This document shows positions 1 to 13,269 of a DNA stretch of 64,000 nucleotides, piece after piece. This stretch comes from Hysterangium stoloniferum (taxonomy: Eukaryota > Basidiomycota > Agaricomycetes > Hysterangiales > Hysterangiaceae): positions 1 through 64,000 of the forward strand of contig WHVD01000046.1 in NCBI GenBank assembly GCA_015178975.1. The letters are read 5' to 3'. A program made the position numbers and the translations under genes. A model generated the notes under the pieces. The model searched no databases. It was not told the DNA's origin and saw only the letters and a list, made by a program, of their open reading frames with translations. How positions within the stretch are numbered: position 1 is the stretch's first letter; every line of letters begins with the position of its first letter.

Positions 1-3000
1 TTCTTCTAAGGAACCTCAACCTTTGACCTTCACCGTCAATAAGGCCCCTTTCGGAGGCATGAGAAGGAGTCATCCAAACTCACCTCTCTCCCCGATAAAG
101 GTGTGCGTACTGAAAGAGTCGTGCGAGCCTTGGAGGATTGCACTATCGATCCAGAGTCAGCCAGATTAGTGCCTATTTTTGTTGAAGATCTAAAGGGCGA
201 GGAATGGATTGTTGAAGGAATCGTACTGCAAAACGAGGACGGTTCTATATTAGCCACACCAATCACGGCAATTTCAAGGAATAGTGCGGCAGTACCTTTA
301 GCCAATCCATCGCTAACCCCTAAGACTATCCGACGAGGGGAGACAATAGGGATAATTCATGACCCCACTCGTTGGGCTCACAAGCCCAGGTCACTCGAGG
401 AGAAAGGTTTAATGGTAATAGGGCGACCAAAATCGCACACCTTATTGAAAGTCTCTCTCAACTTGAGGAGGACCGTCAGGTCGCCTCAGAAAGGCCTAAA
501 CCACCTGTTGAACCAGATTTCGAAACCGCCTGGTCCTAAGACGGCTGCAGTGGCTGATAATGAGAAATTTGCCTCAGAGGATCTTCACAAGTTAGTCAAT
601 TTGGGACCGGATATACCAACAGAGGTCCTGCCACGTCTCAGATCAGTTTTGACTGAGAACGTTAAGGCTTTTGGAGTCGACGGACGGTTAGGGCAAGTGG
701 AATGTAGAGTCCCTGTCCCCTTGAAAGAGGGAGCCCAGCCCATATCCATGCCTATGTTCCCTTCGTCCCCTGCCGATAGGAGAGTTATAGACGAGCAAAT
801 GGATACCTGGTTCGAACAGGGTGTCATTGAGCCATCTAAAAGCCCCTGGGGAGCGCCAGCCTTTGTAGTATATCGCAATGGTAAACCGCAGGTGGTCATC
901 GACTATCGGAAACTTAATCATCTCACTGTGCCAGACGAATTCCCTTTACCACGTCAATCGGAGATTATGCAGGCGCTGTCGGGGTCAAATGTTCTTTCTT
1001 CTTTCGATGCGCTAGCCGGGTTTACTCAATTAGAAATGTTGGAGGACGATAAGCCCAAAACAGTCTTTAGATCCCATAGAGGGCTGTGGCAATTTAAAAG
1101 GATGCCATTTGGGCTCAGAAACGGCCCTCCACATTTCAACGCGTCATGCAAACAGTTTTAGCACCCTACTTGTGGATTTTTTGTTTAGTCTACATCGATG
1201 ACATAGTCATATTCTCTAAGAACTGGGATGATCATTTGCTTCACCTGAATCAGGTGCTTAGCACTATCGCTTCGGCCGGTATCACTCTCTCTCCCAAGAA
1301 ATGTTTTATCGGATATAATTGATATTGTTATTGGGTCATAAGGTATCTAGACTGGGTTTTTCAACCCACCAAGAAAAAGTTCGCACTATATTGGAATTGG
1401 CCCCACCCACCAAGGTTTCTGATCTACAACGTTTCCTTGGAATGGTCCTTTACTTTTCAGCATATATACCATTCTATTCATGGATGGTGTCCCCTTTATT
1501 CTCGCTCCTAAAAAAGGGAACACCTTGGACGTGGACTGCTGAACATGTCCGAGCTTATGAGGATGTTAAAACCGCATTAGGATCAGCTCCAGTGCTGGGA
1601 CATCCAGTTAGTGGGATGCCCTACCGATTGTATACAGACGCTTTGGATTTTGCCTTGGGTTGTTGCCTCCAACAAGTCCAGAAGATGGCTTTAGGAGACT
1701 TAGTGGACACTAAAATCTATGCCCAAGCCAAATTGGCTTTTGACCGTGCGCAGGACGTGCCATCCTTTGTTCATCGGTACAAAACCAAACAGCCTGAGAT
1801 TGAGTGGTCAGATTCGTGGGGATCCACTTTTGAGGCGACCGAAGTTACTGTTGAACGAGTCATTGCATATTGGAGTTGCATGCTGAAAAGCGCTGAGCGT
1901 AACTATTCCGCTACTGAACGGGAAGCATTAGCAGCAAAGGAGGGACTAGTCCACTTTCAACCTTTCATTGAAGGTGAACATGTCCTGCTCATTACGGACC
2001 ATGCAGCTCTGCAATGGGCTAGATCTTACGAGAACACTAATCATTGACTAGCCGCATGGGGGGTGATATACGCTGCATTTCCAGGTCTCGAGATTTTGCA
2101 TCGAGCAGGGAGAGTTCACAGCAATGTGGATCCACTGTCCAGACTCCCTCGGGTACCAGCCTTCGTGAGCCCTATTAGAGATGATTTACAGGCTATCACC
2201 TCGACCTCTCTGGACAAGAGTACTGAGGAAAAATTATGGAAGGACGAACCCGCTAAGAAAGCGGTCTTCTCTACCATACTCGATTCCATGGAACCTTTCG
2301 GAGTAACTCAAAAGGTCCGACGGTCAGAATGGGATTCTCATAACGCAATAAGGAATGACCAGGAAGACGAGTCTGACTTCGCATTGCATCATCCTCAGCT
2401 ACTAATCAGCATTGAGGAGGGATATATAAAGAAATTTCTAGAGGGTTATTCAAGGGACCCGGTTTTCAGGAATCTCTACGCTTTAGATACCCCTTCACCC
2501 AACGCGGTTGTTACTCCTTCTCACTACTTCGTGGGAACAAACCGACTCCTGTACTTTCACGACTCGGACTGGAAAAGTCGAGTCTGTGTACCCAGAACCA
2601 TGATTAACTCGATTCTAAGGTTGGTACATGATAACCCTTTTGAGGGAGCACACGCCAGAGGCCAGCGGTTGTTCAACCTGATGAAAGACCGGTTCTTTTG
2701 GCCAAGAATGCTACAAGATTGCGTGTCGTACGCACGTACCTGCGATATCTGCCAAAAAACCAAGGTCGATCGCACCGCTAGTCAAGGAGCCCTCAGACCG
2801 GCTGACATACCTTTTAGGCCATTCGAGGTAGTTTCTATGGACTTAATCACTGGACTACCTGATTCAGGAAAGGATTCGTATTCCGCAGTCTTCATCGCCA
2901 TTGATAAATTGGCGCGTTACGCTATCACAATACCTACCTTTTCGAACCTTACGGCTGAAGGATTCGCACGAATATTTGTCAAACAGGTAGCAAGCCCTTT

Positions 3001-4261
3001 CGGACTGCCCTCTCGAATAATCTGTGATCGGGATAAGAGATGGACCTGCAGGTTTTGGCGAGAAGTCTGTAAGATCTATGGTACCACCCTTGCGGTATCT
3101 TCGGCTCATCATCCTCAAACGGATGGGCAAATGGAGAATATGAATGCGACCATTGAACAGATGCTTCGAGCCTATTGTGCCTCTGCTAAGGAAAGCTGGT
3201 CCCAGTGGATTGAGGTAGTTGTTCACGCATACAACTCGACTGTTCACAGTTCCACAAACTACGCCCCGGCCTTCTTATTAATGGGATACCTCCCAAGAGG
3301 AATGTCTCGAGTCCTAGGAGGCGATGAGCCCCTAGTTCCTAGAGAACTATCAGACAGCCCTATGGCAGACCAATGGATCCTCGAGCTAGAAAATCATCGG
3401 CAGATGGCGCGAGATTCAATCGCTCGAGCCCAAGAGATTCAAGCACGAGCGTACAACAAGAAGCAAAGACCCGTAGAAGATATCTCTGAGGGAGACTTTG
3501 TATTGGTGAACCCCCACTCCCTCGAACTGGTGGAAGTCAAGGGAACGGGGAAGAAACTAATACAAAGATGGATTGGACCATTCGAGGTCCTTGAGAAATT
3601 GAACTCTCAAGTATTTAGGCTTAAGATTCCCCCGGAGTATCCTATGCATCCAGTCATTAATCGGGATCATCTGCGGAAATATCAACCCTCTCCTTCCAAG
3701 CTAGGTCCGAGACCCCAACTTGAGAACCTAAGAGAGTTGAAATCAGATCATGAAGAATATGAAGTCGAAGCTATTGTTGGACATAGGAAACAGTGAAATC
3801 GTCTGCTATTTAGGGTGCGCTGGAAAGGTTATGGACCCGAGGAGGATTCGTGGTTAAGCAGCACTGACCTTAGAAATGCTCCGGCACTTCTGAGGGCGTA
3901 CAAGGTGCTGTTCAACATTTAACGGGATATATGCGCTCAAGGAATCATCTATTCCATCTCTTTTGTAACTTCCTTTCAGAAATATCTCAGTTATTCAGTG
4001 AGCCATCTCATTGGCTTTTATTCTTTTTTCATTTTTCTATCCCTTCGGTCGATTGGGACAACCATTAATTGGCAGCGGACACATTTCCCCAAAACCCGGT
4101 CACAATTAATGAATTTTATTTAACGACCAACCGAGCGGAGTTTCAATTCAATATATATAAAAAAGTACACGTAAATTCGCATAAATTTTCTTTATCTTTC
4201 ACACCACGTCCTTCACCTATCTACAGCCCTTCCCTCTATCTTTAACTTCACCACTTTTATC

Positions 4262-6251
4262 ATGCTATCATGCTCCCTTTCCAACAAAGCAAGCAAGTCC
4301 TCCCTAAGTTCAAAAAGGTCCCGCGAGCCCCGACAGCCAGTACATCCACGACCGGCGGGGGATTCATCACCCACGTGCCTCGTACAGACAATGTCAAGAG
4401 CAATTGGGGTACCCAAGAACCAACCCCCCTGTCGACTTTCTCCTTTGGTGATGAGCCAGGGAAAAATACCGGTACGGATTGGAGCAAGCCGCTAGGCCCC
4501 TCCGTCAGACCGTCATCTGAGGAAGTCGCTGCTATCATGCGGAAACAGGAAATGTTTATGGAAGAACACAACGCAAGGAGGCTCATCCACAAAAGAGAAA
4601 GGCGTGCTGAGTATAGAAGTCAACAGGAGGCGAGGGGAGCAAGAGAAGGAGTCCCCTCCAAGTGACAGCGGCGTGAGTACAGAGAGCAACGCATAAACAG
4701 AGCCTCCGCGCCGATCATTCCCCCCCCCGGGAGAGAAATGGGCCGACTTCGCGGAGACCGATGATAGTGAGGGTGGGACGCCTTGCATTAGGACGACGGG
4801 AACCAAGAGCTGGAAGGAGAAGGAGGGTACCATTTTTTACGACTGGGAGCTACTTCGACGCATTAAGTTGCAACGCATAGTTCTTACCCAAGGGGACGGT
4901 CAAACGTTGTCCCAACGAGAAAAAGGATACCGTAGGGGACCAATTGAGTTTTCCTCGGATGAGGATGAGGAGGAGGACGAGAACAGGAATGACGCGTATA
5001 GCATCCGATCTCTGGGAGAGGATTGCCACGAAGGGTTCCTTCTCCCGTCTAAAGTTCGCTTTGTAACCAGCGACCCCAACCAAAGACAAACGCGGAGACC
5101 GTCATCCAGAGTATGGAGGGGTCACCACCCTAGTCAACAGTCACTGGAATGTGAACCTTCCACGATTCCGGTCCCACATCTCTCGCCTCATTTACCTCCC
5201 TCTTCAAAAGCTGTACCAGTCCCAACCTCACTTAGGACATCGAGGCCCCTCCCATCCTCCACCCGGCACACACTCCCTCAGCCCAACGCGAACCTTCCCC
5301 GATTCTGGCGCCTCGTCTCTCTCCCTCCCCAAAAGCTATACCGGTACCGACCCAACTTCCGCCATCACCGGGTATCCCTCCTGACTCCCCGTATTCATAT
5401 TGTGTGTCTTTGGGTAGCCCTATCCAGGACCTTCCACCAGAGCGAATGGATGTCGATTTGGACCCCCTACACCGGACGTCATCGATCCCATGGCAAACAG
5501 AAAGGCGAAGGAGATGCAGATAGCCACCTCTCCTCTCCGAGAACAATCCCCTATTCCCATCCCTGACAGCCCGGTTCCCCTCACTGAGCCCGTATCCACA
5601 ACTTTCTGGATGCGAGTAGCTGTCAACTACCCTTCTGAACAGTTTCCTGTCAGAAGGGTGCTATCACAGCTCGTGCCAGTACTTCAGCAACCGGTCCTTC
5701 AAGGGAGCCTCAAGGGTTGTCGCGGTCTGGCTCCGTTGTCGGAGATAATGGAGGATTTCTATCTCTCCTTCGAGGATCTCGCAGAGGGGAAGAACTTTGC
5801 ACAAGCAGCACAGGATATTAAACTCTCTATGTTCCGGCACATCATAGTGGAGCTTCACCGTCTGCCCCCAGACTCAGCGAATGTCCTCTCTATTGCTGGC
5901 TTAGTAGATTTACTCGAGGCCCTCATCCTGATGCCTCCCACAGAGACCACCATGCAGCCACACATTCCTGCCCCACTGCCCGCGTCTTCGTTTCCCCTCC
6001 CCAATGCTCCTCTCCTCGCACCGATTTCCGCTCCACCGGTTAGTGTCCGCGCAGTCGTTCGTTGCAGAGAGAAAGCCTACAGACGATGGGCCGACTCCTT
6101 GTACAGGAATTCCAGTGCTTTGACTCAGGCGAGAATAGCTGACGCCTTCAGAGTAAAAAGGGAACGATGGGGAAACATCATTTTGGACCTTGGGGGATCC
6201 TCACAGGAAGCTTGGGGCGGCGTCCCAGATGCTCTTCAACACCTAGTATAG
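4262..6251 (+). other. Unrecognised ORF block between pol and the 3' LTR of Gypsy element 1
   Basis: Two or three open stretches lie here (4270-4665, 4868-5566, 5490-6251). The last encodes about 250 residues with no domain I recognise. The middle part is Pro/Ser/Thr-rich. A TATA-like AT stretch lies at about 4150-4160, roughly 100 bases before the first ORF. The block ends 25 bases before the polypurine-like tract, so it seems to belong to element 1 and not to host DNA. It could be a gag-like ORF in an unusual position or an extra third ORF; the sequence does not decide. Part of the block is an imperfect tandem duplication (see 5153-5360). Treat it as part of a fossil. Confidence 0.45.
5153..5360 (+). 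repeat. Imperfect tandem repeat, period about 144 bp
   Basis: A segment beginning near 5153 (motif GATTCCGGTCCCACATCTCT) recurs near 5297 in diverged form (GATTCTGGCGCCTCGTCTCT). In both copies a CAAAAGCT(G/A)TACC motif follows, offset by about 140 bases. The repeat lies in the low-complexity Pro/Ser-rich part of the extra ORF block of element 1. Confidence 0.6.
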
Positions 6252-6278
6252 CACATCCCTTCGAACTGGGGGGCACTG

Positions 6279-6915
6279 TAAAGGGTATGCATATATTACC
6301 TGGACTAAGGAATAATAGCGGGATTATAGTACTTTATTATTTGACTTTTATTCTCTTTCTTATATTCTTTCTATATTTCGAGCACACCTTGATTTCGTAG
6401 TTCGAAGCTTTGTGTATACGTATGGGCACTCTCGGCACCAAAAGAGACAGACACTTTTTACCCAGCAGACACCACCTCGTAACGACTCAGACGTCAAATA
6501 GCGAGAGGTGTCAAGGGTAGTATCTCAGCTACCATAAGGGTAGCAATCTCTAGGCTACTAATAGCCTTTGGACTCGAACCGCTAAGGTCGAGTTCCGCCT
6601 TCAAGACTTTGCGCTCGTCAACACTGTAGTCGACTCGCGCTACTATTACTCTATCCTAGATACTCAGTCTTTAGCTGAGTATCTTACTTACTTCTAGTTA
6701 CTAGTTGTACCGTAAAAGGTCAACTCATTATCTTACGGTTCTAAGCCGCCACGAGCAACTATACAGTTGCTCTTTAAGCGTGCAGTGCGTTCTTATACTA
6801 GTACTAATAGTCTAGTAGTCAATAGTATTGTACTGACGGTCAATACTCTCTAATAGTAGTTGAATAAACACTATTCTTCGTATATTGAGCGGTCAGAATC
6901 TAACGACTCTTCACA
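6279..6915 (+). repeat. Candidate 3' LTR of Gypsy element 1
   Basis: The segment begins TGTAAAGGG directly after a GGGGGGCACTG purine-rich stretch and ends ...TCTTCACA immediately before Gypsy integrase coding sequence resumes (6916 on). The TG...CA ends and the position support an LTR of about 637 bp. The interior is rich in short inverted repeats, for example ACTCAG...CTGAGT near 6661-6682, and in TA-rich 3-6 bp palindromes. The 5' LTR is outside the window, so the boundaries cannot be confirmed by comparison. Confidence 0.6.
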
Positions 6916-7719
6916 CTACCGCTAGCCGAATTTGCATACAACAACGCACCGAATGCCACTACTGGCATCTTGCCTTTCTTTGCAAACAAAGGCTACAACC
7001 CCAACATTGCAATCCACCTGGAACGCGATCTTGCATCCACCTGTGCTCAAGACTTTGTTACAAACCTTGATGAGCTACATCAAGAACTTCGTAAAACCAT
7101 CGCAATGGCTCAAGAACGATACCAACGGTCTGCGGATAAGAATTGACTTCCACCTCCTGATTTCAAGATCGGAGACCGAGTATTCGTTAAAGCCGAGTTT
7201 TTCCGAACTACTAGACCCTCTAAGAAGCTCTCTGAAAAATATTTAGGTCCTTTTGAAGTTATAGCACAAGCCGGCATGCTTTCATGGACGCTTCGGCTCC
7301 CCGACAACATGCATGCAGTGCACCCGGTATTTCATGTATCCATGTTAGAACCTTGTGTTGCTAACAGTATACTGGATCACATACAACCACCACCTCCACC
7401 TGTGATCATTGATGGAGAACCCGAATTCGAGATATCAGAAATCCTAGACTCAAAAATCGATAATCACCGACGCTCATGCAAATTACTTTATTTGGTTAAA
7501 TGGGCTGGCTATGAAGGTACAGATGAAGAAACTTCATGGATCCTAGCTACAGAGCTTGGTAATGCCTCGGAAATCATTTTAGGGTTCCACCAAGCTTACC
7601 CGAATAAACCCAGTCCTCTAAATTCTTTATAAGTCTCTCATGTGGTATCCGACCTTTTCCCAACTATGCCTTAAGTTTCACGCTTTGTTTGTTTTGTTTT
7701 AAAAATCATTATATTTTAC

Positions 7720-8703
7720 TATCTAAAGGTTTCCTCCACAACCTCTCCTTCCTCTGCGGCCTCCGAACCTCCTCCCGTATCAACAGCCACCAATACCATT
7801 CCACTGGCCGTTTCTGAGACCCCAATCCTGTGCCCATTTCCATCGCAACTCAAGACTTCTAAATACTGCTCAAGTTGTCCTCCAAGGGACTCGATAATGC
7901 TGGTCTGTTTTTCCAGCCCGATGTCCAAAAGTTGCAACTGCTTGGTTATGAGCCCTTGTTGTCACAGTGTCTCGAATCGGAACCTTGTCATCTCCGAGAA
8001 GTAAGTCCGCATAAGGCGGTTTTGCTCTTCCAGAGCATCGGCCTGTTGCTCCTGGAATGATCCGTCGGCCCCCAGGAAGACGCATCCAAGCTTCTGATCG
8101 GCACACTCTTGACAAGTGCAGCCCTGACCATTGGCCCGAGGATGGCAAGTTCGACCCCATTTTGTGCACCAGTTGCACTTAGGGTCATTTTCAGGCCCCG
8201 CCTTGGGGGCCTGTTTTGGTTTCTATAGGAAAATTATTAGAAGAGTTTTTATTTAGGAACCCGAACCTACCTTGGGGCTCAATGGCCCCGGTACATCCTC
8301 CTCGTCCTCCTCTTCCTCTTCGTCATCGGACTCCGAAGGCGTTGCAGCCTTGCGCTGAAAAAATATATAAGTCAGCAAGGCTCGCAAAAGACACTGGAGC
8401 TGACTTACCTTTCCCTCCCATTTCTTCTTGGCCACCTCCTCTTGCACCCGATTGGCCTCTTGCTGTTTTTTCTTTGCAAGCACTGCATCCCAGTGCTTGC
8501 ATGCAGCCTCCTCTGCTGCCAGCTTTTTCTCCTCGGCCTTGATGGCCACCAGCTCCTCTTTCTCTTTCTGCTCCTCCTCTTCACGCGCCTTTCTCTTCTC
8601 CTCGAGTAACCGATGACGTTCCTGTGTGTTGGGTAGCCTACTTGGTCCCGACATGGGGGCGACAGTCAACCGAACTGGGAATGGTTTCGACCCCGACCCT
8701 ATG
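7720..8703 (-). other. Antisense Cys-cluster / coiled-coil gene carried inside Gypsy element 2
   Basis: Read on the minus strand. A start at 8703 or 8654 gives a long charged Lys/Glu coiled coil (about 8650-8410), a likely intron (about 8409-8356), an acidic Glu/Asp run (about 8355-8270), a second likely intron with GTAGGT donor (about 8269-8222), and a third exon with a cysteine cluster: CNWCTKWGRTC, then CTCQEC about 13 residues later. An amphipathic C-terminal helix with Gln/Leu repeats follows. The cysteine spacing suggests a zinc-binding site. From memory, similar short proteins recur in many agaricomycete genomes, which would fit carriage by a mobile element. It lies wholly between the chromodomain end and the polypurine tract of element 2 and runs opposite to pol. 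It is part of a fossil and does not look whole. The function is unknown. Confidence 0.6.
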
Positions 8704-8882
8704 GTCATGGTGGTCAAGGGAAGAGAAGTGAAGAATCTAGTGCCAGGACCCCTCAAATTTTTATATGTAATTTTTTGCTGAGTCACATGATGTTTTGACA
8801 CACCCAACCGTACCCGACGAGTTTTTACATATGGGATCTAGATTTTTGGCCTCCTTGGGATTTCGGCCAAATGGGGGGATAC

Positions 8883-9597
8883 TGTTACAACCGTGTCGCA
8901 ACCCTATCGGTCCCCGAGGTTATCGCCACTTATCGACAATTCGAGTTACTATTCAAGTCACCACATCAGAAACCATCAGCCCCCAAAGCTGACATATGCT
9001 TTCGCGATGATCAAACTCTGTTTACGCCCACGTCAAAATATACTCATACTATCTGGTTAAACTTTTGATACATCCCCTTTTATTATCATGATCCGTTCTA
9101 TCCTATGCTTCACATATGTCTATCTATATTTGTAGTCCTCAAACTATTTCCTTTTTTCATAATTCCACTCTCGGTTATCTCATCGGCCTCCAAACTAATC
9201 ATAAACTTCCCGTTCCTCGTCAAGCTTATTGTTAATACCGTTTTCTGCCTTTCTCCCCGTTAGTAATTTCTAGATGCCTGTTACTTGTATATGAACCCGC
9301 TGTAGTTGTAGTTACTAGGCAATCAGAATATCGACTCAGAATACCCTCATACGTCTGTAGCAGTCTCATACTAAGAATCCCCTCTTCCGCCTTTGCGTGT
9401 GCTTGCCTACTCCCGGTCCCGACCCCTTGGCCCGACACTCGACTTATCCTTCGGTCCCGATTGGTATCCTGCTGAAAGGAACTCCTTAGGATTAGTCTTC
9501 ACCCATCTGAAATTTAAGGACACTACGGATATTTGCAAGGGCGCAGCACATAAGCTGAAGCCAAGTCCTTCCGATCGGTCCCTGTCGGCCACCAACA
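8883..9597 (+). repeat. 3' LTR of Gypsy element 2
   Basis: The segment starts TGTTACAACC directly after the purine tract ATGGGGGGATAC and ends ...GGCCACCAACA at 9597, giving matched TGTT...AACA ends. The next base begins continuous Helitron helicase coding sequence. The length is about 715 bp. No second LTR copy is in the window for comparison. Confidence 0.7.
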
Positions 9598-10551
9598 TTA
9601 GTCAGTTTTCAGTTCTTAACACATGGGGTGGTGGCTTTCAACAGACATTGCCTGTCATTCCTAAAGGTTCAAAAGAAGATATTATTGGTGCATGTATTTC
9701 ACAGTCTCACCTTTGGCACATTGTCAAGATTCTGTTTTTGACTGAGAATATGCATGTAGACCTACTGATCAAGAGAGTGCTGTTTTTGCTCAGTGGCTTT
9801 TGGATATTTGACATGGAAAGGACATGCCTCTTGATCATATGTTTAAAGTCCCTGAACACATGCTATGTGGACCAACAGTGGATAATTTAGTCTCAACTAT
9901 TTATCCAAACATACATGATCCTGAGGTTCTTACTGATGAGTCTTTCTTGAAGCGGGCCATTCTCTGTCCTCGAAATACAGATGTAGATCAAATCAATGAC
10001 ATGCTCTTTGAAAAATTTCCAGGGATTGGGCAGACCTACCACAGTGCAGACAGTGTCAAAGATAGAGCCAATGAGACATTATGTATATCTTCCTGAGTAC
10101 TTAAACTCAATCAACTTTGGAGGATTGTCACCAAGTAAATTGCATTTGAAACCTCCGAAACTTGGATCCAGGACAAGGACTCTGTAATGGAACAAGACTG
10201 TGGTTAATACAAATGACTCACAGAGTACTTGAAGTAAAGATCATTACAGGACCTTCAGCAGGAGAGCTGGCATTCATTCCTCGAATAACAATTATTCCAA
10301 CTACAAAACAAGTGCCATTTGAACTGCATCGTCGGCAGTTTCCAGTCAGGCTAGCATTTTCTATGATCAATAAGTCACAGGGTCAATCTTTAAAATTAGT
10401 TGGGTTGGATCTGCATAGTCCTGTGTTCTCACATGGACAGTTTTATGTTGGTGTTTCAAGAGGGACAAATTGGGGAAGAGTGAAAATCCTACTCCATGAC
10501 ACTGATATGACTGCAAATGTAGTGTTTAAGGATGTTATTATTGATCCATGA
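9598..10551 (+). pseudogene. Helitron Pif1-like helicase, C-terminal fragment
   Basis: Several frames together encode a Pif1-like helicase of the Helitron Rep/helicase type: VLNTWGGGFQQTLPVIPKGS and KILFLTENM, then AQWLLDI-like sequence and LKRAILCPRNTDVDQINDML, and finally the conserved C-terminal helicase motifs FSMINKSQGQSLK and HGQFYVGVSRGTNW. These match helicase motifs Q/III to VI in the right order. The reading shifts frame around 9800-9890 and 10090-10160 and carries in-frame stops, so this copy is dead. The N-terminal Rep and early helicase parts are missing, probably displaced leftward by the Gypsy insertions. The last codons (VVFKDVIIDP) recur at 16085, where a further helicase tail is found. 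Confidence 0.85.
10525..10551 (+). repeat. Left copy of a 26-bp imperfect direct repeat flanking the tyrosine recombinase block
   Basis: The right 14 bases are TTATTATTGATCCA. The whole 26-mer differs from the copy at about 16085-16111 at three positions, all transitions. It encodes the end of the helicase (VFKDVIIDP). The position suggests an insertion-site duplication or a recombination site. Confidence 0.65.
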
Positions 10552-12525: not shown

Positions 12526-12624
12526 TTGTACATTGCCCTTCATATCAGGACCACCATCAGGTTCAATGGCACATTTCCTCTTCTCACCAGCCTCTGCTGC
12601 ATCGTCTCGTTTAGCCTCCCCATT

Positions 12625-12812
12625 TCATCCGCCGCCACATCCACCACCACGTCCACCACCATGTCCACCACCACATCCACCACCACATCCGCCGCCACGT
12701 CTGCCACCACATCCGCCGGCCACATCCACTACCATGTCCACCACCGTGTCCGCCGCCACATCTGCTGCCACGTCCACCACCACGTCCACTGCCATGTTTG
12801 CCTCGACCGCCC
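12625..12812 (+). repeat. 12-bp minisatellite (CCACCACRTCCR-type)
   Basis: About 15 degenerate units of a 12-mer, CCACCACATCCA/CCACCACGTCCA and close variants, run across this stretch. Long ORFs on both strands (Pro/His-rich one way, Val/Asp/Gly-rich the other) result from the repeat and are not evidence of genes. Confidence 0.9.
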
Positions 12813-13269
12813 CGTCCACCACAGCCTCCACAAGCCCCACGACCTCCATGACCTCCACCTCGCCCTCCAGAGCCATGATTGTCGCTATTGGAGATAACCC
12901 GTTGGGTGGCTGCTTTGCACGCTCAATCTGGAATGCTTTTTCTGTCTCCTCTGGAAAATGCCTTGTCGAACGTGCTCTACATGATAGACAACGAATTAAA
13001 CCAACATACCATCAGGGACTTCCCATTCAACTGCATTGTCATTCCACTATGCTGGGTCGGAAAGGCAGTTTACCTCTAAGCACAAAGTCCATCATTTCAA
13101 TATCACTCATACCTGGTTTAGGTCTGATGAGAAGGCCAGGATTGGGAACTAGTGCATTTATCAAATCAAGCAGAGTACATGATGTAGCAGTTAGAATAAA
13201 ACATGGACAATAGATTCCTAGTTTGGTTAGTCCCAAAAAAAAGGATCTGCTGATAGGACACAATTTACC

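Follow-up and report, generated by a model that had tools for sequence, protein, structure and literature searches.

An intron-bearing antisense gene under purifying selection in Ty3/Gypsy chromoviruses of Hysterangium stoloniferum

Near the 3' end of a Gypsy-type element in the fungus Hysterangium stoloniferum, the strand opposite to pol can be read as a gene with introns, and the question is whether such a gene belongs to the element, is maintained by selection and serves its carrier. Introns that lie antisense to the genomic RNA have no splice sites there and are thus retained through retrotransposition. We followed this locus from the window, i.e., the whole stretch of 64,000 nucleotides analyzed here (contig WHVD01000046.1, positions 1 to 64,000, forward strand), into the 111-Mb genome.

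The antisense gene between pol and the 3' LTR

The pol frame of the window copy ends with a stop at 7632, and the part that is present (6911-7632, plus strand) holds the integrase C-terminus with an SH3_Tf2-1 domain (Pfam, E = 1e-19) and a chromodomain (Chromo, E = 2e-6). Downstream follow a polypurine tract, read from the sequence as AAATGGGGGGATAC (8869-8882, plus strand), and the 3' LTR of about 739 bp (TGTTACAACC...TTCTTAACA; 8883 to about 9621, plus strand), delimited by its sequence and by comparison of copies. The first-pass annotation had proposed a gene with two introns and a cysteine cluster on the minus strand between the end of pol and the polypurine tract, and this is what we find: three exons occupy 8708-7719 on the minus strand. 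Exon 1 (8409-8708; 100 codons) probably begins at the upstream ATG at 8708, which is conserved in all 36 aligned copies of the family described below, and encodes a charged, repetitive stretch, for which Pfam gives weak matches of low-complexity appearance; exon 2 (8271-8354) adds 28 codons. Judged by eye, exon 1 resembles a coiled coil and exon 2 is acidic. Intron 1 (8355-8408; 54 nt, GTAAGT...CAG) and intron 2 (8223-8270; 48 nt, GTAGGT...TAG) are both in phase 0, and each has GT-AG ends in 34 of the 36 copies, with both intact in 33. Exon 3 (7719-8222) encodes the cysteine cluster and the C-terminal part of the protein. In the window gene, the cluster reads CNWCTKWGRTC-x10-CQECADQKLGC, and its spacing, C-x2-C-x6-C-x10-C-x2-C-x6-C, is of the Zn(II)2Cys6 type, a point that the first-pass annotation had missed.

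The 5' region of the gene (8709-8882, minus strand) is a candidate promoter, with a TATA-like sequence, CATATAAAAA, at 8758-8767 and, in the antisense reading, TGACTCA at 8779-8785. An in-frame TGA at 7964-7962, within exon 3, makes the window copy a pseudogene. This copy lacks everything of its element 5' of the pol end; similarity to other copies starts only at 6911, where the LTR of another element appears, by eye, to end. The premature stop and this truncation lead us to regard the window copy as dead.

Linkage to a chromovirus and presence in a second family

A genome search with window positions 7720-8880 as the query produced 368 candidates, of which 40 matches were scored, including the window itself; the others are 84-88% identical to it. 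Thirty-six copies of this family (family 1) were aligned, namely, the window, L009-L028 (20 of the 39 other matches), and L029-L043 (15 of 40 matches from a second search). Although the 35 fetched copies were chosen by the antisense segment alone, pol was reached in 34 of them (the exception being L022), and the start of the LTR was likewise reached in 34 (the exception being L020). We therefore discarded a separate insertion with its own boundaries, as the sequence runs on into the element on either side in 34 of the 35. The gene travels with a Gypsy element, as had been claimed, and the converse possibility, that homologs sit at ordinary gene loci with no flanking pol or LTR, does not apply to the fetched copies. 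When several gene searches were pooled, the matches listed covered at least 88 distinct genomic places of the family-1 gene. Three of the copies, L012, L013 and L016, are near identical (0-0.9% apart) on different contigs and have common early stops and a shortened 5' part; they represent either segmental duplication or haplotypes that the assembly failed to collapse.

The carrier has LTRs of about 739 bp (TGTTACGACC...TTCTTAACA) with TG..CA ends, and 9 of the 20 ten-kb copies show two LTRs with identical 5-bp flanks, i.e., a target duplication. In L028, whose LTRs are 96.8% alike, gag, protease, reverse transcriptase, RNase H, integrase, SH3_Tf2-1 and chromodomain are all present; the order gag-PR-RT-RH-IN-chromodomain was read in this copy only. 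Since this copy contains the full set of domains, the carrier is a Ty3/Gypsy chromovirus. Inside the element of L018, reading frames on the minus strand (4469-5515 in the oriented sequence) resemble, by eye, a transposase of Tc1/mariner type, and we take them to be a nested insertion.

The association was also visible from the side of pol. When the genome was searched with the pol C-terminus, at least 26 of the 40 best-scoring places adjoined a match to the antisense gene (one of these, C541, has only part of the gene, with about 690 bp missing), and the other 14 lie beyond the gene matches listed. Distances between copies in pol and in the antisense gene are correlated (r = 0.58), a value reached by none of 2000 permutations. 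The first-pass annotation had named absence of the segment from other copies of the element as evidence against its proposal; such absence is contradicted by these 26 copies and seen in one related element. This element, in L019 (raw positions 3800-5400, minus strand), has a chromodomain about 78% similar, a similar junction of polypurine tract and LTR, and a spacer of about 640 bp in which no Cys6 gene is recognizable (best tblastn match, E = 0.02), reflecting either a loss or a family without the gene.

Two independently made lists gave the same picture. For at least 69 of the best 150 of 2638 SH3_Tf2-1 candidates, one of the best 150 of 1324 candidates for exon 3 of a second family (see below) lies within 3 kb downstream on the opposite strand, and for none is it on the same strand or upstream; the distance from the SH3 domain to the gene, listed for 66 of the 69, is 478-494 bp in all of these. 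Among the 31 SH3 matches located in frames of at least 1190 amino acids, 22 have the gene among the matches listed. The nine long-frame matches that have no listed gene include some near contig ends and some with other frame lengths, and the latter may be other families. By our own count, 107 of the best 150 antisense-gene matches contain no stop, and 21 have one common score of 272.2 bits, which fits recent copies and suggests that these elements are young. Many elements with a long open pol frame also have an uninterrupted exon 3. The generality that the first-pass annotation considered thus holds within this genome, for family 1 and for the many matches to the second family alike.

This second family came to light in the L023 locus. 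A different chromovirus lies there, whose chromodomain shows 74% identity over 204 bp and whose antisense gene is divergent. Ten copies (L044-L053) were sampled. The family-2 gene has three exons, with introns at the positions and in the phase of family 1 (GK^xKAA and P.K^K); the ATG is conserved in 9 of 10 copies, GT-AG ends of intron 1 in 8 and of intron 2 in 9, and the Cys6 cluster was found by pattern in 7. The exon-3 profiles of the two families match (hhalign, E = 2.1e-5, probability 77%). Between families, exon 3 shows 26-29% identity to L035; all six cysteines align, except that L015 has W in place of one, and they belong to the small set of residues that both families retain. The gap between exon 1 and exon 3, taken from 35 pairs selected for matches on the same contig, is 144-180 nt and is spread over the three frames (13/11/11), as two introns flanking a short exon require. 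The gene therefore moves with its element, and its two small phase-0 introns are conserved between two divergent families.

Purifying selection on the antisense reading frame

Codon patterns were analyzed in the 36 family-1 copies by comparing variants common to at least three copies, most of which predate insertion, with singletons, most of which are later. Shared variants fall on codon positions 1, 2 and 3 in 68, 72 and 134 cases and singletons in 53, 51 and 62, and the ratio of silent to changed codons is 131:143 for shared variants versus 51:115 for singletons (p = 0.00046). The same test gave p = 0.82 in each of the two other antisense frames and p = 1.0, 1.0 and 0.81 for the introns and the 5' region read in an arbitrary frame. 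Taken by exon, the signal resides in exon 3 (p = 0.0008), with exon 1 (p = 0.29) and exon 2 (p = 0.48) not significant. It is preserved when the near-duplicates L012 and L016 are left out (p = 0.001, and p = 1.5e-6 for variants common to at least six copies). In family 2, where a variant was counted as shared when found in two or more copies, the ratios are 130:141 for shared variants versus 69:207 (p = 3e-8), compared to p = 0.27 and 0.92 in the other antisense frames; here, exon 1 (p = 0.0001) and exon 3 (p = 0.0009) both contribute, exon 2 being not significant (p = 0.31). Because shared variants are enriched for silent changes in the gene frame of both families and in no other antisense frame, we conclude that the antisense protein evolved under purifying selection.

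The C-terminus of pol served as a control in the same copies (n = 32, after four with a short pol were dropped). Its ratios of 27:31 and 24:43 do not differ significantly (p = 0.27), and the silent share of shared variants is alike in the antisense gene (131/274) and in pol (27/58). Overall divergence is twofold higher in the antisense gene (0.121 versus 0.058). Indels per 100 bp per copy amount to 2.6-2.8 in the introns, which contain slippage-prone runs, 0.33 in the 5' region and 0.04-0.15 in the exons. Substitution levels of the exons (0.140, 0.092 and 0.112) are not clearly below those of the introns (0.156 and 0.101) or the 5' region (0.094), and the case for selection thus rests on the codon pattern and the indels. 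A stop or frameshift before 7740 is found in 31 of the 36 family-1 copies, the window included, and five are open through 7740.

A gene on the sense strand was considered and dropped, as exon 3 has stops in all three sense frames in every copy; opposite exon 1, 22 of 36 copies have one sense frame that runs through without a stop. The silent/changed test covered antisense frames only.

Nature of the protein and comparison with known antisense genes

Fungal DNA-binding clusters of the Zn(II)2Cys6 type (PF00172) have the spacing C-x2-C-x6-C-x5-12-C-x2-C-x6-8-C, and the cysteines of the antisense gene fit this pattern. The coiled-coil-like stretch in the same protein is a further likeness to this class; in contrast, the cluster lies mid-protein, after the acidic stretch, and matches to Pfam Zn_clus stay below the gathering score of 21 bits, the best being 20.3 bits (L052, family 2). 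In family 1, one of four exon-3 proteins matched, with E = 0.83. Profiles of solved structures (PDB) gave chance-level matches only, and no relative was found in the viral contigs scanned with family-1 exon 3, pol and family-2 exon 3. TATAAA occurs between the ATG and the polypurine tract in 31 of 36 family-1 and 8 of 10 family-2 copies, and given the TATA-like CATATAAAAA upstream of the ATG, the gene probably has its own promoter there. Close to this candidate promoter, at the tip of the LTR (window 8883-8903 and other copies), we observed an imperfect inverted repeat, GTTACGAC-NNN-GTCGYAAC, the arms of which agree at 5-8 of 8 positions in 16 matches found with a pattern that itself favors agreement; it was not among the repeats found by a separate repeat search. 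This repeat is a candidate site for a dimeric protein.

The antisense gene is far beyond chance, given the 40 scored matches at 84-88%, the window among them, and the frame-specific codon patterns. A DNA-binding regulator with its own promoter is the likeliest reading, and we consider it reasonably probable that a group of chromoviruses has a selected, antisense, spliced third gene encoding such a regulator of the element. In related Ty3/Gypsy chromoviruses of this fungus, the gene occupies the space from the chromodomain to the polypurine tract, on the strand opposite to gag-pol. A TATA promoter of its own, a short way inward of the 3' LTR, would drive its transcription, and the transcript would be spliced. 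The introns survive retrotransposition, since in the genomic RNA, which has the opposite sense, they are not splice sites. The product would be a nuclear protein of about 290 amino acids that combines a coiled-coil and an acidic stretch with a Zn(II)2Cys6-like cluster; as a dimer, it would bind DNA and modulate how the element is transcribed or integrated. Its most likely target, by analogy with antisense regulators of retroviruses, would be LTR or promoter sequence. At least two element families have a selected antisense, intron-bearing Cys-cluster gene, which suggests that the element makes its own regulator.

A gene that is real and selected might still encode something other than a transcription regulator, for example, a protein that binds RNA or particles, serves nuclear import, targets integration together with the chromodomain, or blocks host silencing. 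We hold this to be rather unlikely, as the spacing of the cysteines is that of fungal DNA-binding clusters and few other residues are retained between the two families. In its favor, the Zn_clus cut-off is not reached, the basic and acidic stretches are unspecific, and the relevant passages of a 2020 review give the function of such antisense proteins as not known (PMC7264820). It is also conceivable that what counts is the antisense transcript, which might form double-stranded RNA, cause silencing or interfere with the sense transcript, and that the open frame is of secondary importance. Transcription of the two units would be convergent, and the same review describes non-coding antisense RNAs of other elements (PMC7264820). 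However, an effect of the transcript alone is improbable in view of a codon-specific silent excess that appears in two families but not in the other two antisense frames, and of the sense-strand stops opposite exon 3 in every copy.

The ordinary-looking small introns and the promoter-like region would suit a host gene captured in reverse orientation from genomic sequence, and such a gene could be riding along in one element, recently and without a function. This account of a recent passenger is highly improbable, being contradicted by the number of family-1 places and by a second family with strong protein divergence and the same introns. Any capture must, for the same reasons, be old, and selection persisted afterwards; an old capture is a possible origin of the gene. 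A chance open frame opposite low-complexity sequence could be suspected from the repetitive, charged exon 1, its low-complexity-like Pfam matches and the sense frame opposite it, which is also often open. We give this explanation practically no weight and regard it as ruled out, because codon signal is lacking in the other two antisense frames, the introns and the 5' region, and because the indel rates, the codon tests in both families and the pol-linked placement on the opposite strand all contradict it. The DNA-binding regulator thus remains our preferred reading.

Among known systems, the antisense gene HBZ of HTLV-1 is a counterpart in its proposed manner of working. The HBZ transcript is spliced. 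HBZ is a retroelement antisense gene for a regulator of DNA-binding type, and its transcript is described as coming from the 3' LTR. In contrast, HBZ is a bZIP protein and the present one a Cys6 protein, and our TATA-like site is not in the LTR but internal to the element, on the near side of the polypurine tract; no common descent is claimed. Additional antisense ORFs between pol and the 3' LTR are described for plant Gypsy elements, namely, gene23 of Grande, RIRE2, and Retand with TRP28 (PMC7264820, PMC11963269). These plant genes resemble ours in position, orientation, presence in most copies and a suspected nuclear or DNA-binding protein, and for Grande a promoter of its own is reported; they differ in that Retand is described there as a non-chromovirus and encodes TRP28 instead of a Cys6 cluster (PMC7264820, PMC11963269). 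The word "intron" is absent from the main text of both papers.

The first-pass annotation knew of no described fungal case, but one exists: Boty of Botrytis cinerea carries an antisense gene, brtn (Zhao et al. 2011, as cited in passages of PMC7264820, PMC8365987 and PMC4227169). Boty, from an ascomycete, is likewise described as a chromodomain-bearing Gypsy element of a fungus that has gained an extra gene in antisense (PMC7264820, PMC8365987, PMC4227169). With the plant cases and brtn, antisense accessory genes are thus an already known kind. A basidiomycete case was not found in the literature titles and abstract openings, whose coverage is incomplete and no proof of absence, and the word "antisense" is absent from "LTR Retrotransposons in Fungi" (PMC3248453). 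Likewise, a Cys6 gene with two introns conserved in divergent chromovirus families and selection at the codon level was not found in the titles, abstract openings and passages searched.

If our preferred reading, a selected gene for a DNA-binding regulator, is true, the range of conserved antisense accessory genes in LTR elements includes fungal chromoviruses, where the gene is under selection and has introns. It would also show that an element can keep such a gene for long, its introns being concealed by their antisense position. More tentatively, and with more doubt than confidence, we propose that fungal chromoviruses encode a spliced antisense transcription factor of Zn(II)2Cys6 type that is convergent with HTLV-type antisense regulators, old enough to have split among families and a possible source of many orphan Cys6 coiled-coil proteins in mushroom genomes. 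For annotation, there is a warning that some spliced Cys6 proteins listed in fungal gene sets may be retrotransposon genes. The abundance of elements with open copies in a single genome makes a direct test of function feasible.

The window contains further elements. Another chromovirus-type element occupies 43-6910, with integrase and SH3_Tf2-1 (Pfam) within 2048-3796. Between the end of its chromodomain (about 3921, by eye) and its polypurine tract and LTR start (near 6262-6275, by eye), it seems to carry ORFs on the sense strand at about 4246-6251, possibly a third gene in sense orientation; three of these ORFs have no Pfam match. Fragments at 9812-10551 (plus strand) resemble, by eye, a PIF1-like helicase of Helitron type. 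Finally, positions 12590-12847 hold an array of 12-bp units resembling CCACCACCACGT.
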